Assembly (NCBI GenBank): GCA_947447155.1
Contig: CANFIN010000018.1
Coordinates: forward strand, 1-32,221
DNA: 32,221 nt
Reading direction: 5' to 3'
Source: Bacteroidota bacterium
GTDB taxonomy: Bacteria > Bacteroidota > Bacteroidia > AKYH767-A > OLB10
In this document: positions 5,308-11,006 of the stretch, piece by piece
Layout: each line of letters starts with the position of its first letter
Numbering within the stretch: the first letter of the stretch is position 1
Position numbers and translations under genes: made by a program
Notes under the pieces: model-generated
What the model saw: the letters and a program-made list of their open reading frames with translations, nothing else
The model's database searches: none
Told to the model about the DNA's origin: nothing

Positions 5308-5397
5308 AAATATTAAATGTATCCTCAAAGAAATTTAATTTTATTCCCTAAGCGACAATTATATGAATCTTATAATAGATAAGTCCCATGCTTTTTA

Positions 5398-5405
5398 TAG
5401 GTTTG
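5398..5405 (+). promoter_or_regulatory. Candidate -7 promoter element of the EEP-family gene
   Basis: TAGGTTTG matches TAnnTTTG and is followed by CATC, a frequent context. It lies 24 bases before ATG 5430 and downstream of the in-frame ATG at 5388, so the longer reading frame would start upstream of its own transcript. No convincing TTG is seen at the -33 position. Confidence 0.5.
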
Positions 5406-5429
5406 CATCTGAAATTTATTATTAACGAA

Positions 5430-6476
5430 ATGCAAAAAATCGTAAAGTGTTTGTTGCTTGTAATCCTTGCAGCAAATATCCAGTCAGTTAGCGCTCAGGA
5501 TAAACAATACAAAGCTGGTGTTGTGGCCTTTTACAACCTGGAAAATTTATTCGATACAATCAATCAGCCAGAAGTAAATGACGAAGATTTTACACCTACA
5601 GGGGCAAATCTTTATACAGGAAATGTTTACTTAGATAAGTTGTCAAAACTTGAATCTGTTTTAAGTCTTATTGGAACCGATATTACACCCGATGGATTTT
5701 CTGTTCTTGGGTGCGCGGAGGTTGAAAATATTACGGTCTTACAGGATTTACTTAATCAGCCAAAACTAAAACCAAGAGGATATAAAATAGTTCATTACGA
5801 TTCTCCTGACAAAAGAGGAATTGATGTGGGTTTTATTTATAACCCCAAATATTTTAAGGTGCTATATTCAGAGCCATTATTTGTTCCTTTAAAAGGAGAT
5901 GATGGTATGCCTTACTTTACGCGTGATGTATTATACGTTTATGGAATGTACGATGGAGAGCCTATGCATTTTTTTATTAATCATTGGCCTTCTCGAAGAA
6001 ATGGTGAAGAAGCATCCGCTCCTAATCGCGCACTGGCTGCTTCCGTTGCTAAAGCAAAAATCGACTCGATTAATGCAGTAGATCCTCACGCAAAAATTAT
6101 TTTAATGGGCGACTTAAACGATGATCCTGTAAGTCCGAGTGTGACTAAAACATTAGGAGCTACAGGCAATGCCGATAAGATAAAAGATAATGGATTGTAT
6201 AACCCTTGGGTGAAATACTATAAAGACGGAATTGGAACATTGGCGTATGGCGATGCATGGAATCTCTTTGATCAGATCATGATGTCAAATGCGTTTATGA
6301 ATAAAGAGCAAAAAGGATTTTTCTTTCAAAAGGCAAATATCTTCAGCAAGGAATTTATGATTCAAAAAACAGGAAGATATAAAGGTTATCCTTTACGCAC
6401 GTATGATTTTAGTGTTTATCAAGGCGGATATTCTGACCATTTTCCTACTTATCTGCTTCTTTTAAAAGAAAAATAA
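5430..6476 (+). CDS. Secreted endonuclease/exonuclease/phosphatase (EEP) family protein
   Basis: This is a 348-residue metal-dependent phosphoesterase of the DNase I-like EEP superfamily, exported by a signal peptide that ends near SVSAQ. EEP landmarks are in the expected order: NLEN (36-39), AEVEN (96-100) with the metal-binding Glu, NHWPSR (184-189) with the catalytic-type His, GDLNDDP (227-233) with the Asp/Asn pair, and the closing SDHFP (335-339). Substrates of this superfamily range from DNA and RNA to phospholipids and inositol phosphates, so the exact one is open; similarity to extracellular nucleases is the best guess. It is divergent from the TonB receptor/DUF5689 pair, and its stop is one base from the SixA-like gene. 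The start was chosen from the promoter element at 5398. Confidence 0.9.
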   Translation: MQKIVKCLLLVILAANIQSVSAQDKQYKAGVVAFYNLENLFDTINQPEVNDEDFTPTGANLYTGNVYLDKLSKLESVLSLIGTDITPDGFSVLGCAEVENITVLQDLLNQPKLKPRGYKIVHYDSPDKRGIDVGFIYNPKYFKVLYSEPLFVPLKGDDGMPYFTRDVLYVYGMYDGEPMHFFINHWPSRRNGEEASAPNRALAASVAKAKIDSINAVDPHAKIILMGDLNDDPVSPSVTKTLGATGNADKIKDNGLYNPWVKYYKDGIGTLAYGDAWNLFDQIMMSNAFMNKEQKGFFFQKANIFSKEFMIQKTGRYKGYPLRTYDFSVYQGGYSDHFPTYLLLLKEK

Positions 6477-6477
6477 T

Positions 6478-6978
6478 ATGCTTAAGCGGATTGTATTGAT
6501 AAGACATGGGAAATCGCTTTATGATGAATATGTTGCAAATGACATTGAGCGACATTTAGCGGCTCGTGGTTATCATGATGTTGAGCAAACTGCCGCATGG
6601 TTAAAAAATAATTCTATTTTTCCCGATGCGATGGTTACCAGTCCGGCAATCAGAGCTTATTCAACTTGTTTAATCATAGCTAATCATTTTGCATTTGATT
6701 TAAATAATATTACAATCAAAGGTGCAATTTACGAAGCATCTGACAATGCACTGATGTATGTTATTAATGAGTTGCCAAACGAAGCACAAACGATTTTTTT
6801 GTTTGGACATAATCCTTCTTTAACATCAATCGTTGGTAAGCTTACAACTCAAGAATTAGGGCATTTACCAACATCAGCAATTGCAGTTATTGATTTTGAA
6901 AATGTAACATGGAATGAAATCAAATTACATTCTGGAAGGTTAACAAATTCTTTTTGTTGTCATAAAAGTATTGATTAA
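6478..6978 (+). CDS. SixA-like histidine phosphatase
   Basis: This is a 166-residue member of the histidine phosphatase (phosphoglycerate-mutase-like) superfamily. The catalytic RHG is at 9-11 with the phospho-accepting His10. The second-half His111 sits in FGHNPSLT, and SPAIRA (55-60) carries the supporting Arg. The short length and the late LPTSAIAVIDF segment are typical of SixA-like phosphohistidine phosphatases rather than mutases. E. coli SixA dephosphorylates phosphohistidine; the target here is unknown. The gene follows the EEP gene by one base and precedes the lysine-rich protein and ppk1. Ppk1 works through a phosphohistidine intermediate, so a functional link is possible but is inference. 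The Cys-rich C-terminal tail (SFCCHK) is unremarkable. Confidence 0.88.
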   Translation: MLKRIVLIRHGKSLYDEYVANDIERHLAARGYHDVEQTAAWLKNNSIFPDAMVTSPAIRAYSTCLIIANHFAFDLNNITIKGAIYEASDNALMYVINELPNEAQTIFLFGHNPSLTSIVGKLTTQELGHLPTSAIAVIDFENVTWNEIKLHSGRLTNSFCCHKSID

Positions 6979-7053
6979 TTATAATGATATTAAGTTATTG
7001 TTATAAAATCTGCACTTAAAATTTATCTTAATGTTATCTTTTTAAACTTAAGG

Positions 7054-7083
7054 TTGAATTAAACTTTCTTTTTAAAATATTTG
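7054..7083 (+). promoter_or_regulatory. Weak candidate promoter ahead of the lysine-rich protein and ppk1
   Basis: TTG at 7054-7056, a 19-base gap and AATATTTG at 7076-7083 give correct spacing but one mismatch to the TAnnTTTG core. It sits in the 124-base AT-rich gap between the SixA-like gene and the lysine-rich gene, where I see no other structure. It would let the ppk1 unit be transcribed apart from the EEP/SixA genes. Confidence 0.3.
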
Positions 7084-7102
7084 TGCAACATCAAATTTTA
7101 AA

Positions 7103-7393
7103 ATGGTTATGCATAAAAAACAACGAAAAGAAATTGAGCAACAATTGTCAATTACAATTGCTTATTTTTTAAAAAAGCAACACCCTGTTGCAGCAAAAGA
7201 AATGACTAAAGCGATTAAATCATCTGCAAAAGATGTCGCTAAAAAATTTGTTAAAGCGATTGAAAAAATTGAAAGCAAAAAAGAAGCGCCCAAGCCGTCG
7301 GTTAAGTCAGTTAAAAAAGCATCTCCGGCAAAAAAGAAATCAGCAGTAAAAAAAACAAATAGTAAAAAAACGGTTACTAAGGCCGGCAAATAA
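7103..7393 (+). CDS. Small lysine-rich, histone H1-tail-like protein upstream of ppk1
   Basis: This 96-residue protein has no signal peptide or membrane segment. Residues 4-57 look like a small helical domain (IEQQLSITIAYFLKK, then AAKEMTKAIKSSAKDVAKKF). Residues 58-96 form a low-complexity basic tail with 15 Lys in 39 residues, built from KK separated by A, S, T, V and P, as in histone H1 or AlgP-type tails. There is no Arg in the tail. An ATG at 7109 is an alternative start. The stop is six bases before ppk1, so the two are almost certainly co-transcribed. Lysine-rich tails bind nucleic acid and can also bind or be modified by polyphosphate. A nucleoid- or polyphosphate-binding role is inferred from composition and neighbourhood. 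I do not recognise a named family. Confidence 0.75.
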   Translation: MVMHKKQRKEIEQQLSITIAYFLKKQHPVAAKEMTKAIKSSAKDVAKKFVKAIEKIESKKEAPKPSVKSVKKASPAKKKSAVKKTNSKKTVTKAGK

Positions 7394-7399
7394 TTTTTT

Positions 7400-9454
7400 A
7401 TGAAGCGGGAAGAATTGCTTATTGTAAATCGTGATATAAGTTGGCTATCATTTAATGATAGGGTGCTGCAAGAAGCAAATGATCCTAGCGTACCTTTGCT
7501 AGACAGACTAAAGTTTTTAGGTATTGTTTCAAGTAATCGTGATGAATTTTTTCGTGTTAGAGTAGCCTCTATAAAGAGAATGGTGCGCCTTGGCAAGAAA
7601 GGCGAAGAGTTGATGGGCGAGAATCCAAATCAACTCCTTGATAGTATTCAAAGTATCATTGTTAGGCAGCAAGAGGAGTTTGATGATAGCTTCCAGAAAA
7701 TTTTAAGTGAGCTTGAAAGAAAAGGAATTTTTTTATTGAACGAAACGCAGCTTACAAAAGAGCAAGGAGCTTTTGTAAAAGAATATTTTTATGAAAATGT
7801 TCAGCCTGCATTAGTGCCAATTTTACTTGATAATCTGAGTGAATTTCCATCGATGAAAGATAGGAGCATTTACTTTGTAATAATGATGCAGAAGGGAGGC
7901 TCCAAAACAAAATATGCATTGCTGGAAATTCCGAATGAGGTATTGCCGCGATTTGTAGTTATTCCTAAAGAAAATAAATACATTATATTACTTGATGATG
8001 TAATTCGGTATTGCTTGGATGATTTATTTTTTAGTTTTGATTATGATTTTATTAGTGCATATACAATCAAAATAACCAGAGATGCTGAGCTTGATTTAGA
8101 ACAAGATGTTACTAAAAGTCTAGTTAAAAAAGTAGCAGAGAGTATTAAAAATCGTCGTAAAGGACAACCTACTCGTTTAATTTACGATGAATCTATGCCA
8201 ACTGAAGCGTATAAGTTTTTATTGAAAAAAATTCAATTAAATAAAGAAGAGCATCCAATATCAGGTGGTCGATATCACAACTTTGTCGATTTTATGAAAT
8301 TCCCATCGCTAAATCGATTGGAATTAAAACAAAAAAATGCGCCGTCTTTACCTCATAAAGCAATACCACCACGAACAAGTATGTTCAAAATTATTGCTAA
8401 ACAAGATATCTTGCTTTCTTTTCCTTATCAATCGTATACGCATGTAATTAATTTGCTTCGCGAAGCATCTATTGATCCCAAGGTGACAGAAATTAGTATC
8501 ACATTGTATCGAATGGCTAATAATTCACGAATTATTAATTCGCTGATTAATGCTATTAGAAATGGAAAAAAAGTAACAGCAATAGTTGAGTTGCAGGCTC
8601 GATTTGATGAAGAAGCAAATATACGCTGGGCAAATAAACTTAATGAGGAAGGTGTTAAAGTAATTTATGGAGTACCGGGAATTAAGCTGCATAGTAAGTT
8701 GTTTTTAATAACAAGACAAGAGCAAAATAAGATTGTTTATTACGCTCATGTTGGAACCGGCAACTTTAATGAAGATACGGCCAAGCTTTATGCTGATTAC
8801 AGCTTGCTAACTGCCGATAAAAGAATTACTGATGAAGTTAGTAAGGTTTTTAATTTTTATAATGATAATTTAAAAGTAGGTACTTACAAGCATTTAATTG
8901 TATCTCCATTTAATACACGCAAAAAATATATTCAATTTATAAATACTGAAATAGAAAATGCTAAGCTCGGCAATAATGCATGGATATTTATTAAGATGAA
9001 TAGTTTGACAGATCATGAAATGATTAAAAAGCTATATGAAGCATCATCAGCGGGAGTTAAAATTAGAATAATTGTAAGGAGTATTTGTTCGTTAGTTCCA
9101 GGTATAAATATGCTAAGCGAAAATATTGAAGCAATTAGTATTGTAGATAAATTTCTAGAGCACTCTCGAGTTTTTGTTTTTGCAAATAATGGAGATACCA
9201 GAGTATATCTTTCTTCAGCAGATTGGATGACAAGAAATCTTGATCACCGCAGTGAAGTTGGGGTTCCTGTATACGATGTTGAACTGAAAAAGCAATTAAT
9301 TGAAATGCTGGAAATTCAATGGAATGATAATACAAAAGCAAGAAGCATAAATGTTTTTCAATCCAATCCGTATCACCACTCGAAAGTAAAAGGTAAATAT
9401 AAATCGCAAGAAGAAATTTATAAATACCTCGAAAAAAATAATAATACAAATTAA
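7400..9454 (+). CDS. ppk1: Polyphosphate kinase 1
   Basis: Ppk1 reversibly transfers the gamma phosphate of ATP to a growing polyphosphate chain through a phosphohistidine intermediate. The 684-residue length fits the family. The N-terminal domain opens with the hallmark NRDISWLSFNDRVLQEA and SSNRDEFFRVRVA. The phospholipase-D-like catalytic half carries the autophosphorylated His431 in GIKLHSKLFLI, TGNFNE in the following segment, and His588 in LEHSRVF; these correspond to E. coli His435 and His592 and have the same 157-residue spacing. DHRSEVGVPV lies at about 615-624. The gene is six bases after the lysine-rich protein and 32 bases before ppx, giving a polyphosphate synthesis/degradation unit. 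All key residues are intact. Confidence 0.97.
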   Translation: MKREELLIVNRDISWLSFNDRVLQEANDPSVPLLDRLKFLGIVSSNRDEFFRVRVASIKRMVRLGKKGEELMGENPNQLLDSIQSIIVRQQEEFDDSFQKILSELERKGIFLLNETQLTKEQGAFVKEYFYENVQPALVPILLDNLSEFPSMKDRSIYFVIMMQKGGSKTKYALLEIPNEVLPRFVVIPKENKYIILLDDVIRYCLDDLFFSFDYDFISAYTIKITRDAELDLEQDVTKSLVKKVAESIKNRRKGQPTRLIYDESMPTEAYKFLLKKIQLNKEEHPISGGRYHNFVDFMKFPSLNRLELKQKNAPSLPHKAIPPRTSMFKIIAKQDILLSFPYQSYTHVINLLREASIDPKVTEISITLYRMANNSRIINSLINAIRNGKKVTAIVELQARFDEEANIRWANKLNEEGVKVIYGVPGIKLHSKLFLITRQEQNKIVYYAHVGTGNFNEDTAKLYADYSLLTADKRITDEVSKVFNFYNDNLKVGTYKHLIVSPFNTRKKYIQFINTEIENAKLGNNAWIFIKMNSLTDHEMIKKLYEASSAGVKIRIIVRSICSLVPGINMLSENIEAISIVDKFLEHSRVFVFANNGDTRVYLSSADWMTRNLDHRSEVGVPVYDVELKKQLIEMLEIQWNDNTKARSINVFQSNPYHHSKVKGKYKSQEEIYKYLEKNNNTN

Positions 9455-9486: not shown

Positions 9487-10389
9487 ATGTTAAAATTTGC
9501 TGCTGTAGATATAGGTTCAAATGCTGTTCGTCTTTTATTATGCAACGTATTTGAAGAAGGAAGTGAACCTGTTTTTAAAAAAGCAGAGTTGGTGAGGATG
9601 CCTATCCGTTTAGGTGAAGATGTTTTTCGATTTGGAAAAATATCAGAAGAAAAGAAGAAGCAACTTGCCAAATCAATGAAGGCTTTCAAGATGCTTGCTG
9701 AAGTATTTGGGGCTATTGATTTTCGTGCCTGTGCAACCTCCGCAATGCGAGACGCTACTAATAGCGAAGAAATTGTAGAGTATGTACAATCATACAGTGA
9801 TGTAAGTATAGAAGTTATTGATGGCAAAACAGAAGCTCATATTATTTATTCAAATCATATTGCAGAGCATCTTGAATTTGAGCAATCCTATTTGTATATC
9901 GATGTAGGTGGCGGAAGTACTGAGTTGACATTATTTTCGAAGAATAAAATTATAGCCGCTCAGTCATTTAATATTGGCACCATTCGTTTACTTCATGATC
10001 AGGTTAAAAAGGAAACATGGAGTATTTTTAAAGATTGGATTCGTGAAAACACAAAACTATATCACCCGCTTACTGCCATCGGTTCTGGAGGTAATATTAA
10101 TAAGCTATTTAAAATGGCAGACCGAAAAGAACATAAGCCGTTGCCTACTGAGAAAATCAAAGAGATTTATGATTTTCTTAAAGAATATTCTCTTGAAGAG
10201 CGCATTTTGAAATTGGGATTAAATCCCGATCGTGCTGATGTGATTATTCCAGCAACTAAAGTGCTACTTACAGCATTAAAAACTGCGGAGATTGATAGGG
10301 TATTTGTGCCTCAGGTTGGTTTGTCAGATGGTATTGTACACCTCTTATATGAAAAGTATAAAGGCATGCCTGAAATTCCATTTAGTTAA
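9487..10389 (+). CDS. ppx: Ppx/GppA family exopolyphosphatase
   Basis: This 300-residue phosphatase belongs to the actin-like ASKHA superfamily and releases terminal phosphate from polyphosphate or pppGpp. Phosphate 1 motif AAVDIGSNAVRLLL is at the N-terminus, ACATSAMRDATN follows near residue 80, GKTEAHIIYSNH carries the expected catalytic-type Glu, and phosphate 2 motif DVGGGSTEL begins at 139. The C-terminal GSGGNINKL segment closes the second ASKHA lobe. It is the short form, without the HD-like C-terminal domains of E. coli Ppx (513 residues), so substrate preference is uncertain. It follows ppk1 by 32 bases and ends in a four-base stop overlap with the convergent sprT-like gene. No terminator separates them. 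Confidence 0.92.
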   Translation: MLKFAAVDIGSNAVRLLLCNVFEEGSEPVFKKAELVRMPIRLGEDVFRFGKISEEKKKQLAKSMKAFKMLAEVFGAIDFRACATSAMRDATNSEEIVEYVQSYSDVSIEVIDGKTEAHIIYSNHIAEHLEFEQSYLYIDVGGGSTELTLFSKNKIIAAQSFNIGTIRLLHDQVKKETWSIFKDWIRENTKLYHPLTAIGSGGNINKLFKMADRKEHKPLPTEKIKEIYDFLKEYSLEERILKLGLNPDRADVIIPATKVLLTALKTAEIDRVFVPQVGLSDGIVHLLYEKYKGMPEIPFS

Positions 10390-11006
10390 TCAATTAAGCG
10401 TGCATCCATATGCGGAGGTACAAAATATAACAGCCCTGTTTTCGCATCGTGGCAATTATAATTCTTTCTTCTAAGTTCACCTCGGATAAATTGTTGTCCG
10501 TTTTTTATTTCAAACTTTGCATCTAACGGAATATCCTCAACATGCATCCATCCTTCATCACGATTGTCGAATGCTTTTAATGATTTCATTAAATTGGAAT
10601 CGCTACAGCTCGATGCCGCAGGATTTTTAATGTAGTTAAGCAATGCACTTCTTACGCCGTCAGGGAAAATATCTTCTTTAATGAATGGAATTAGCAATTG
10701 CCTGAATTCTTCTTTCCACTCCAAGCCATGAGGCATAACGCGGTTGCCATGTTTGATAAAACAAGTTAAATGTGCAACTTCATGTGTGAAAGTTATTAAG
10801 AAGGCGTAAGGGTTTAAATCGTGGTTAATCGTAATGGTGTGATTGGCGCCGTTAAAAGGTGGACGGTAATCTCCATTTTTTGTGGTGCGCGTATGTTTTA
10901 TTCTTACGCTGATTTTATGTTTTCTAATCCATTCAACGCATGTTGTAACAGCATCTTCTGGAATATATTTTAATAAAGCTATTCGAAGTTGATCTTCGGT
11001 AACCAT
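10386..11006 (-). CDS. SprT-like zinc metalloprotease-domain protein
   Basis: This 206-residue cytoplasmic protein has a SprT-like domain. The metal site is HEVAH at 75-79 plus His93 in PHGLEWKEEF, the typical third ligand. The C-terminal part includes a Lys/Arg-rich RGELRRKNYNCHD segment resembling the second half of SprT proteins. SprT/Spartan relatives process DNA-protein crosslinks in eukaryotes; the bacterial role is poorly known. I chose ATG 11006 because it overlaps the feoB stop as TAATG and because the preceding 26 codons of open frame lie in feoB and look like membrane-gene shadow. Overlap implies translational coupling with feoB. The gene converges with ppx, and the two stops share TTAA. 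Confidence 0.87.
   Translation of the reverse strand: MVTEDQLRIALLKYIPEDAVTTCVEWIRKHKISVRIKHTRTTKNGDYRPPFNGANHTITINHDLNPYAFLITFTHEVAHLTCFIKHGNRVMPHGLEWKEEFRQLLIPFIKEDIFPDGVRSALLNYIKNPAASSCSDSNLMKSLKAFDNRDEGWMHVEDIPLDAKFEIKNGQQFIRGELRRKNYNCHDAKTGLLYFVPPHMDARLID

Follow-up and report, generated by a model that had tools for sequence, protein, structure and literature searches.

A lysine-rich protein encoded directly upstream of ppk1 in Bacteroidia, a candidate polyphosphate-handling protein

The ppk1 locus and its lysine-rich gene

The window, that is, the whole 32,221-nucleotide stretch of Bacteroidota DNA that was analyzed, carries a polyphosphate (polyP) locus on its forward strand. The ppk1 gene (7400..9454, +) encodes a polyphosphate kinase 1 of 684 amino acids, identified by its Pfam PP_kinase domains and by TIGR03705 (793.9 bits, cut-off 465.85), and is followed by ppx (9487..10389, +), which encodes an exopolyphosphatase-like protein of 300 amino acids (PF02541, E 5.8e-36; TIGR03706, E 1.8e-61, under its cut-off). 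A terminator-like hairpin found 3' of ppx as a consensus match (10483..10500, +) is a possible end of the operon, the number of such hairpins found being not above chance. On the 5' side lies a gene for a SixA-like histidine phosphatase (6478..6978, +; PF00300, E 3.4e-8; TIGR00249, E 1.5e-14, under its cut-off), which is kept upstream in most relatives. A gene of the endonuclease/exonuclease/phosphatase family (5388-6476; PF19580, E 5e-114) ends 1 nt 5' of the SixA-like gene. Downstream of the latter, an AT-rich gap of about 130 nt (6979..7108, +), similar in length to that of many relatives (about 110-150 nt), might hold a separate promoter; promoter scans gave promoter-like matches at chance level only.

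Between this gap and ppk1 lies the gene of a small lysine-rich protein. A preliminary description of this DNA had placed it at 7103-7393, six bases before ppk1, and the open reading frame indeed has 96 codons on the + strand and a stop 6 nt 5' of the ppk1 ATG at 7400. The end at 7393 was retained, but the start was moved: since homologues begin M-x-K-K/x-x-R-K, translation more likely starts at the third codon (7109), which gives a protein of 94 residues encoded at 7109..7393 (+), whereas a start at 7103 would add 2 residues. In the sister genome L018 the protein was identical, and its gene differed from that of the window by 11 synonymous and 0 non-synonymous changes. Two more distant genomes gave a dN of about 0.10-0.14 in the N-terminal domain and 0.42-0.49 in the tail, with synonymous sites near saturation. 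As dN was far lower in the N-terminal domain, it is the sequence that is conserved in this part, and mainly the composition in the tail. Judged from its sequence, and with this purifying selection on the protein, the lysine-rich frame is a real gene.

Architecture of the protein

The helical N-terminal domain (residues 1-58; 7109..7282, +) was delimited by three alignments and by AlphaFold2 run on five sequences, which predicted helices at residues 3-24 and 26-58 with a pLDDT of about 83-91 over most of both, in agreement with the preliminary description, according to which the first half looked helical. The second helix is amphipathic (its hydrophobic moment was matched by 1% of shuffles), whereas the first is not by the same measure. 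The remainder (7283..7390, +) is a predicted disordered tail of Lys, Ala, Ser, Pro and Thr without Arg, modeled at a pLDDT of 40-50. The whole model had a mean pLDDT of 70 and a pTM of 0.33, and therefore no tertiary arrangement is to be read from it. Direct reading of the sequence bore out the earlier count of 15 Lys and no Arg in the last 39 residues, a count that holds for the 41-residue tail as well; the net charge of the 94-residue protein is +22.

The same helical domain and Lys-rich tail were found in 38 further copies linked to ppk1. Their alignments revealed a conserved 53-residue core, MxKxxRKxLExxLxxxIxxxLxKxNxxAxxxIxKxxxxAxKxxAKKFxK, while the 39 homologous tails, mostly of 30-70 residues, together contain 31% Lys, 16% Ala, 6% Pro, 15% Ser plus Thr and 3% Arg; the median net charge of the homologues is +23. 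Because the tails stay Lys-rich at loci of 50-54% G+C, AT-rich DNA does not account for them. Scans of the window protein and 15 homologues against Pfam and NCBIfam yielded no family match, only scattered sub-threshold matches, and a comparison of the profile with PDB sequences gave nothing significant, the best hit being a small DNA-binding protein at E 0.18.

Occurrence beside polyphosphate kinases and elsewhere

A first search of 61 relatives retrieved 16 copies, each flanked on one side by ppk1 and on the other, where the contig extends that far, by a SixA-like gene. Later searches employed a profile built from the N-terminal domain. In the family set, a copy was present in 14 of 24 genomes, namely in 14 of the 18 with ppk1 and in none of the 6 without it. 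The order set gave 17 matches in 16 of 29 genomes, every match lying immediately 5' of ppk1; 16 of 20 ppk1-bearing genomes and 0 of 9 ppk1-less genomes had a copy (hypergeometric 7e-5, uncorrected for phylogeny). One genome (G041) carries ppk1 twice, and each ppk1 is accompanied by a SixA-like gene and a lysine-rich copy of its own; another (G011) has a diverged copy just 5' of ppk1 that was initially missed. In a class sample of 296 genomes, the best 22 matches all adjoin ppk1, directly upstream of it, and in one family (f25) a copy lies beside ppk1 in 12 of 12 genomes. The ppk1-linked copies number 39 in 38 genomes, with a median gap to ppk1 of 20 nt, and the two genes occur together across at least six families (counts uncorrected for shared ancestry). 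The carriers are apparently draft genomes, and those with a title shown were mostly assembled from metagenomes. Hence the question whether homologues sit beside ppk1, raised in the preliminary description, was answered in the affirmative, and the scatter without a ppk1 link that was named there as a refutation was not seen, the ppk1-less genomes of the order having no copy. In one relative (L057/L058, G008:C22:77838-79256), ppk1 is split into two parts, of which the first contains a stop; the SixA-like gene and ppx are kept there and the lysine-rich gene is absent.

Only about 23 of the 251 ppk1-bearing genomes of the class sample had a copy, and about nine in ten had no detectable one, so that the protein is not needed for polyP synthesis. 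A phylum-wide sample of 325 genomes, mostly of other families, gave no other carrier at E 1e-5, which indicates a clade-restricted family; by these searches, it is confined to a small number of Bacteroidia lineages, most of them uncultured.

The small size of the gene and a gap to ppk1 of 3-20 nt in about half of the 39 copies would suit a short upstream reading frame that aids translation of ppk1 and has no function of its own. However, the gap reaches up to 136 nt, the domain is conserved in all 39 copies, relatives occur in other contexts and the protein is under the strong purifying selection described above; this explanation is already largely refuted and we give it hardly any credence.

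Weaker matches revealed a second, diverged type of relative, type 2, which proved homologous to the ppk1-linked type in a profile-profile comparison (hhalign P 2e-9); profile scores were 21-25 bits, whereas none of 1,600 shuffled decoys scored above 12. The class sample held nine clear type-2 places. One copy (G035) forms a single open frame with the SixA-like gene, upstream of ppk1. In two genomes of different families (G064 and G150), called ppk1-less because no ppk1 match was found at E 1e-30, the gene order is PPK2, SixA-like, type 2, with kinases that matched PF03976 at about 1e-91 and exceeded the cut-off of TIGR03707. Since PPK1 and PPK2 are unrelated and have the polymer alone in common, this setting is the strongest individual argument for a role of the protein in serving polyP rather than one enzyme. 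The link to polyP put forward earlier therefore has good support from gene context, with ppk1 as the neighbor and, in these two genomes, PPK2.

The same observations might be taken to mean that the protein is a small subunit that assists or regulates the kinase; its helical part would bind PPK1 while its tail guides the growing chain, so that activity, processivity or chain length would be altered and granules affected only secondarily. The very tight, order-fixed place 5' of ppk1, the single partner for each of the two ppk1 copies in G041 and the partnership with PPK2 in ppk1-less genomes are all compatible with such a subunit, as are a few PPK1 proteins with a basic N-terminal tail of their own (best case L125, 'MSKKRIIKKKIVGKSSAKSGVKKKIVRKAPAKKKATHKK'). 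Nevertheless, two unrelated kinases as partners fit binding of a shared product better than binding of one enzyme, and basic tails on PPK1 are uncommon and, even among members of one genus, not conserved; we thus regard a kinase subunit as rather unlikely. The PPK1 proteins of L125 (G074) and L068 (G027) have Lys/Arg-rich N-terminal extensions of 40-50 residues, and a separate lysine-rich gene is absent there. As a fusion argument these tails were set aside, for they turned out to be sporadic and not conserved in near relatives on a wider look, and they are a hint only.

Several relatives of types 2 and 3 are not located near any polyP gene, which argues that the helical domain itself is not polyP-specific. 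Dps proteins serve in DNA protection during starvation, and type 3 (54-60 residues, Lys-rich) was found directly beside a Dps gene at two loci, L139 (G099:C39:20100-23100) and L130 (G078:C66:29500-32500); a BON-domain-like gene, recognized by eye, is near in L130 and L142. At L167 (G285:C295; 596-1348 and 1402-1704, minus strand), a type-2 gene is directly upstream of a gene for a ParA-type ATPase (NF041546, E 6.4e-26, below its cut-off), a pair reminiscent of organelle positioning. In G128 and G056, type-2 genes are located beside genes of similar-looking helical proteins of about 200 residues (L127, 4750-5337, -; L134, 1957-2592, +), which are at most weakly phasin-like (PF09361, E 0.011 for one of the two). 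The remaining type-2 copies are near other genes. Several of these settings of the domain outside polyP loci also point to starvation, granules or the nucleoid.

Proposed role and comparison with known systems

These findings led us to hypothesize, with moderate confidence, that the lysine-rich protein is a dedicated polyP-handling protein, whose tail would bind polyP and whose helical part would oligomerize or dock on the kinase, so that granules are nucleated or spaced. This hypothesis was supported by the following observations: (i) the linkage to ppk1, (ii) the co-loss with ppk1, (iii) the PPK2 context, (iv) the frame shared with the SixA-like gene, (v) selection on the protein, (vi) the predicted helices and tail, (vii) the precedents set by AlgP and by polyP-binding Lys-rich segments of Escherichia coli proteins, both discussed below, and (viii) the scarcity of CHAD phosins in the order. 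The disordered tail would bind the polyP chain electrostatically, the helical part would oligomerize or dock on PPK1 (on PPK2 for type-2 relatives), and several tails would gather nascent chains into granules, whose number and spacing would be controlled in this way. As the tail resembles those of histone H1 and AlgP, it may in addition tether granules to the nucleoid, which is the least certain step. A Lys-rich tail is, on the other hand, expected to bind any polyanion, and this counts against a polyP-specific reading.

No CHAD phosin was detected in the window genome, a weak absence given that the genome is 85% complete, and 37 of the 42 genomes of the order are without one; the lysine-rich protein may therefore replace CHAD phosins. 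In G041, a CHAD (phosin) gene lies about 2 kb 3' of ppk1 in a cassette that also has the lysine-rich gene (L184, G041:C269:153080-153658).

A broader proposal, which we consider speculative and on balance doubtful, would be an undescribed polyP-scaffold family that accompanies whichever kinase is present, be it PPK1 or PPK2, and connects the polymer with the nucleoid. It would belong to a larger superfamily of helical proteins with Lys-rich tails in Bacteroidota; together with the other branches, beside Dps, ParA-type and phasin-like genes, it would make up a common toolkit by which storage and stress bodies are positioned. The bacterial proteins known as binders or organizers of polyP are few. 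A small protein whose gene stays next to that of the kinase, and which is paired with PPK2 in genomes lacking PPK1, makes a clean candidate for granule nucleation or spacing; if this is true, H1-like tails are used for polyP organization more than once in bacteria.

Several known proteins offer a comparison. PhaF-type phasins tether PHA granules to the nucleoid by means of a helical oligomerizing part and an H1-like DNA-binding tail. The lysine-rich protein resembles them in its helical part, its H1-like tail and a storage-granule context, the partner polymer here being presumably polyP; Pfam phasin models gave no match up to E 1 in 15 members. PASK stretches are poly-acidic and Ser/Lys-rich, and were sought as 20 residues with at least 75% Asp, Glu, Ser or Lys, a threshold adopted here. 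The window protein reached a maximum of 65% and is Lys-rich, not poly-acidic. Since a PASK composition was lacking and the covalent nature of lysine polyphosphate modification is disputed (PMC12345225), the earlier suggestion that the protein is a target of this modification is weak and was set aside. Disordered Lys-rich segments of Escherichia coli YihI and Rnr do bind polyP, and the tail would likewise be expected to bind it without a fold, but those segments belong to translation proteins and the tail described here to a kinase-linked one (PMC12345225).

The preliminary description knew of no protein in this role next to ppk1. This agrees with our search of openly available papers, in which we found no description of a lysine-rich protein beside ppk1 in Bacteroidota, but it does not extend to polyP-binding proteins in ppk operons generally, as the gene of PptA, a CHAD phosin of Streptomyces, is transcribed together with ppk (PMC8003754). 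Both are encoded with ppk, and binding of polyP is proven for CHAD and inferred for the lysine-rich family; CHAD is, however, a folded helical module of about 230 residues (PMC8003754, PMC6537752). The CHAD domain (PF05235) had no Pfam match in the lysine-rich protein or its homologues.

The earlier comparison with AlgP of Pseudomonas aeruginosa was apt, because AlgP is a proven organizer of polyP granules: it has a predicted helical N-terminus and a disordered H1-like tail, sits on the granules and requires this tail for their even spacing (PMC9239181). Either PPK1 or PPK2A alone suffices for AlgP foci, and without polyP kinases AlgP appears to be associated with the whole nucleoid (PMC9239181). 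The latter behavior, the H1-like composition of the tail and the relatives beside Dps (type 3, two genomes) and a ParA-type ATPase (one type 2) would also agree with a nucleoid protein of the H1/AlgP kind, acting on DNA and merely co-expressed with ppk1 in starvation, with polyP competing with DNA. A general nucleoid protein should nonetheless outlast the loss of ppk1, whereas the ppk1-less genomes of the order are without a copy, and neither Hc1, Hc2 nor linker-histone Pfam models matched any of 15 members up to E 1; we find this alternative improbable. By the tests made, the lysine-rich protein is not a CHAD phosin, a phasin, an Hc1/Hc2 protein or a PASK protein.

For a polyP-handling protein, the likeness to AlgP thus comprises the helical N-terminus, the disordered Lys/Ala-rich H1-like tail, the link to polyP and the association with both PPK1 and PPK2 (PMC9239181). 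The helical N-terminus with a disordered Lys/Ala-rich tail, common to AlgP and PhaF, was recovered by AlphaFold2 and by composition. In contrast, the AlgP tail comprises 154 residues of KPAA repeats and variants, an array absent here (no KPAA motif in the window protein, at most one in any of 39 members), the tails of the family are mostly 30-70 residues long, and its gene is fixed beside ppk1. The protein would accordingly be AlgP-like in design, the likeness being one of overall build. With its own set of features, i.e., the 53-residue helical core, the Lys-rich tail and the place upstream of ppk1, found in 39 copies from 38 genomes, the protein is most aptly regarded as representing a new family within a functional kind already known, probably with an AlgP- or phosin-like job, in a few Bacteroidia lineages.
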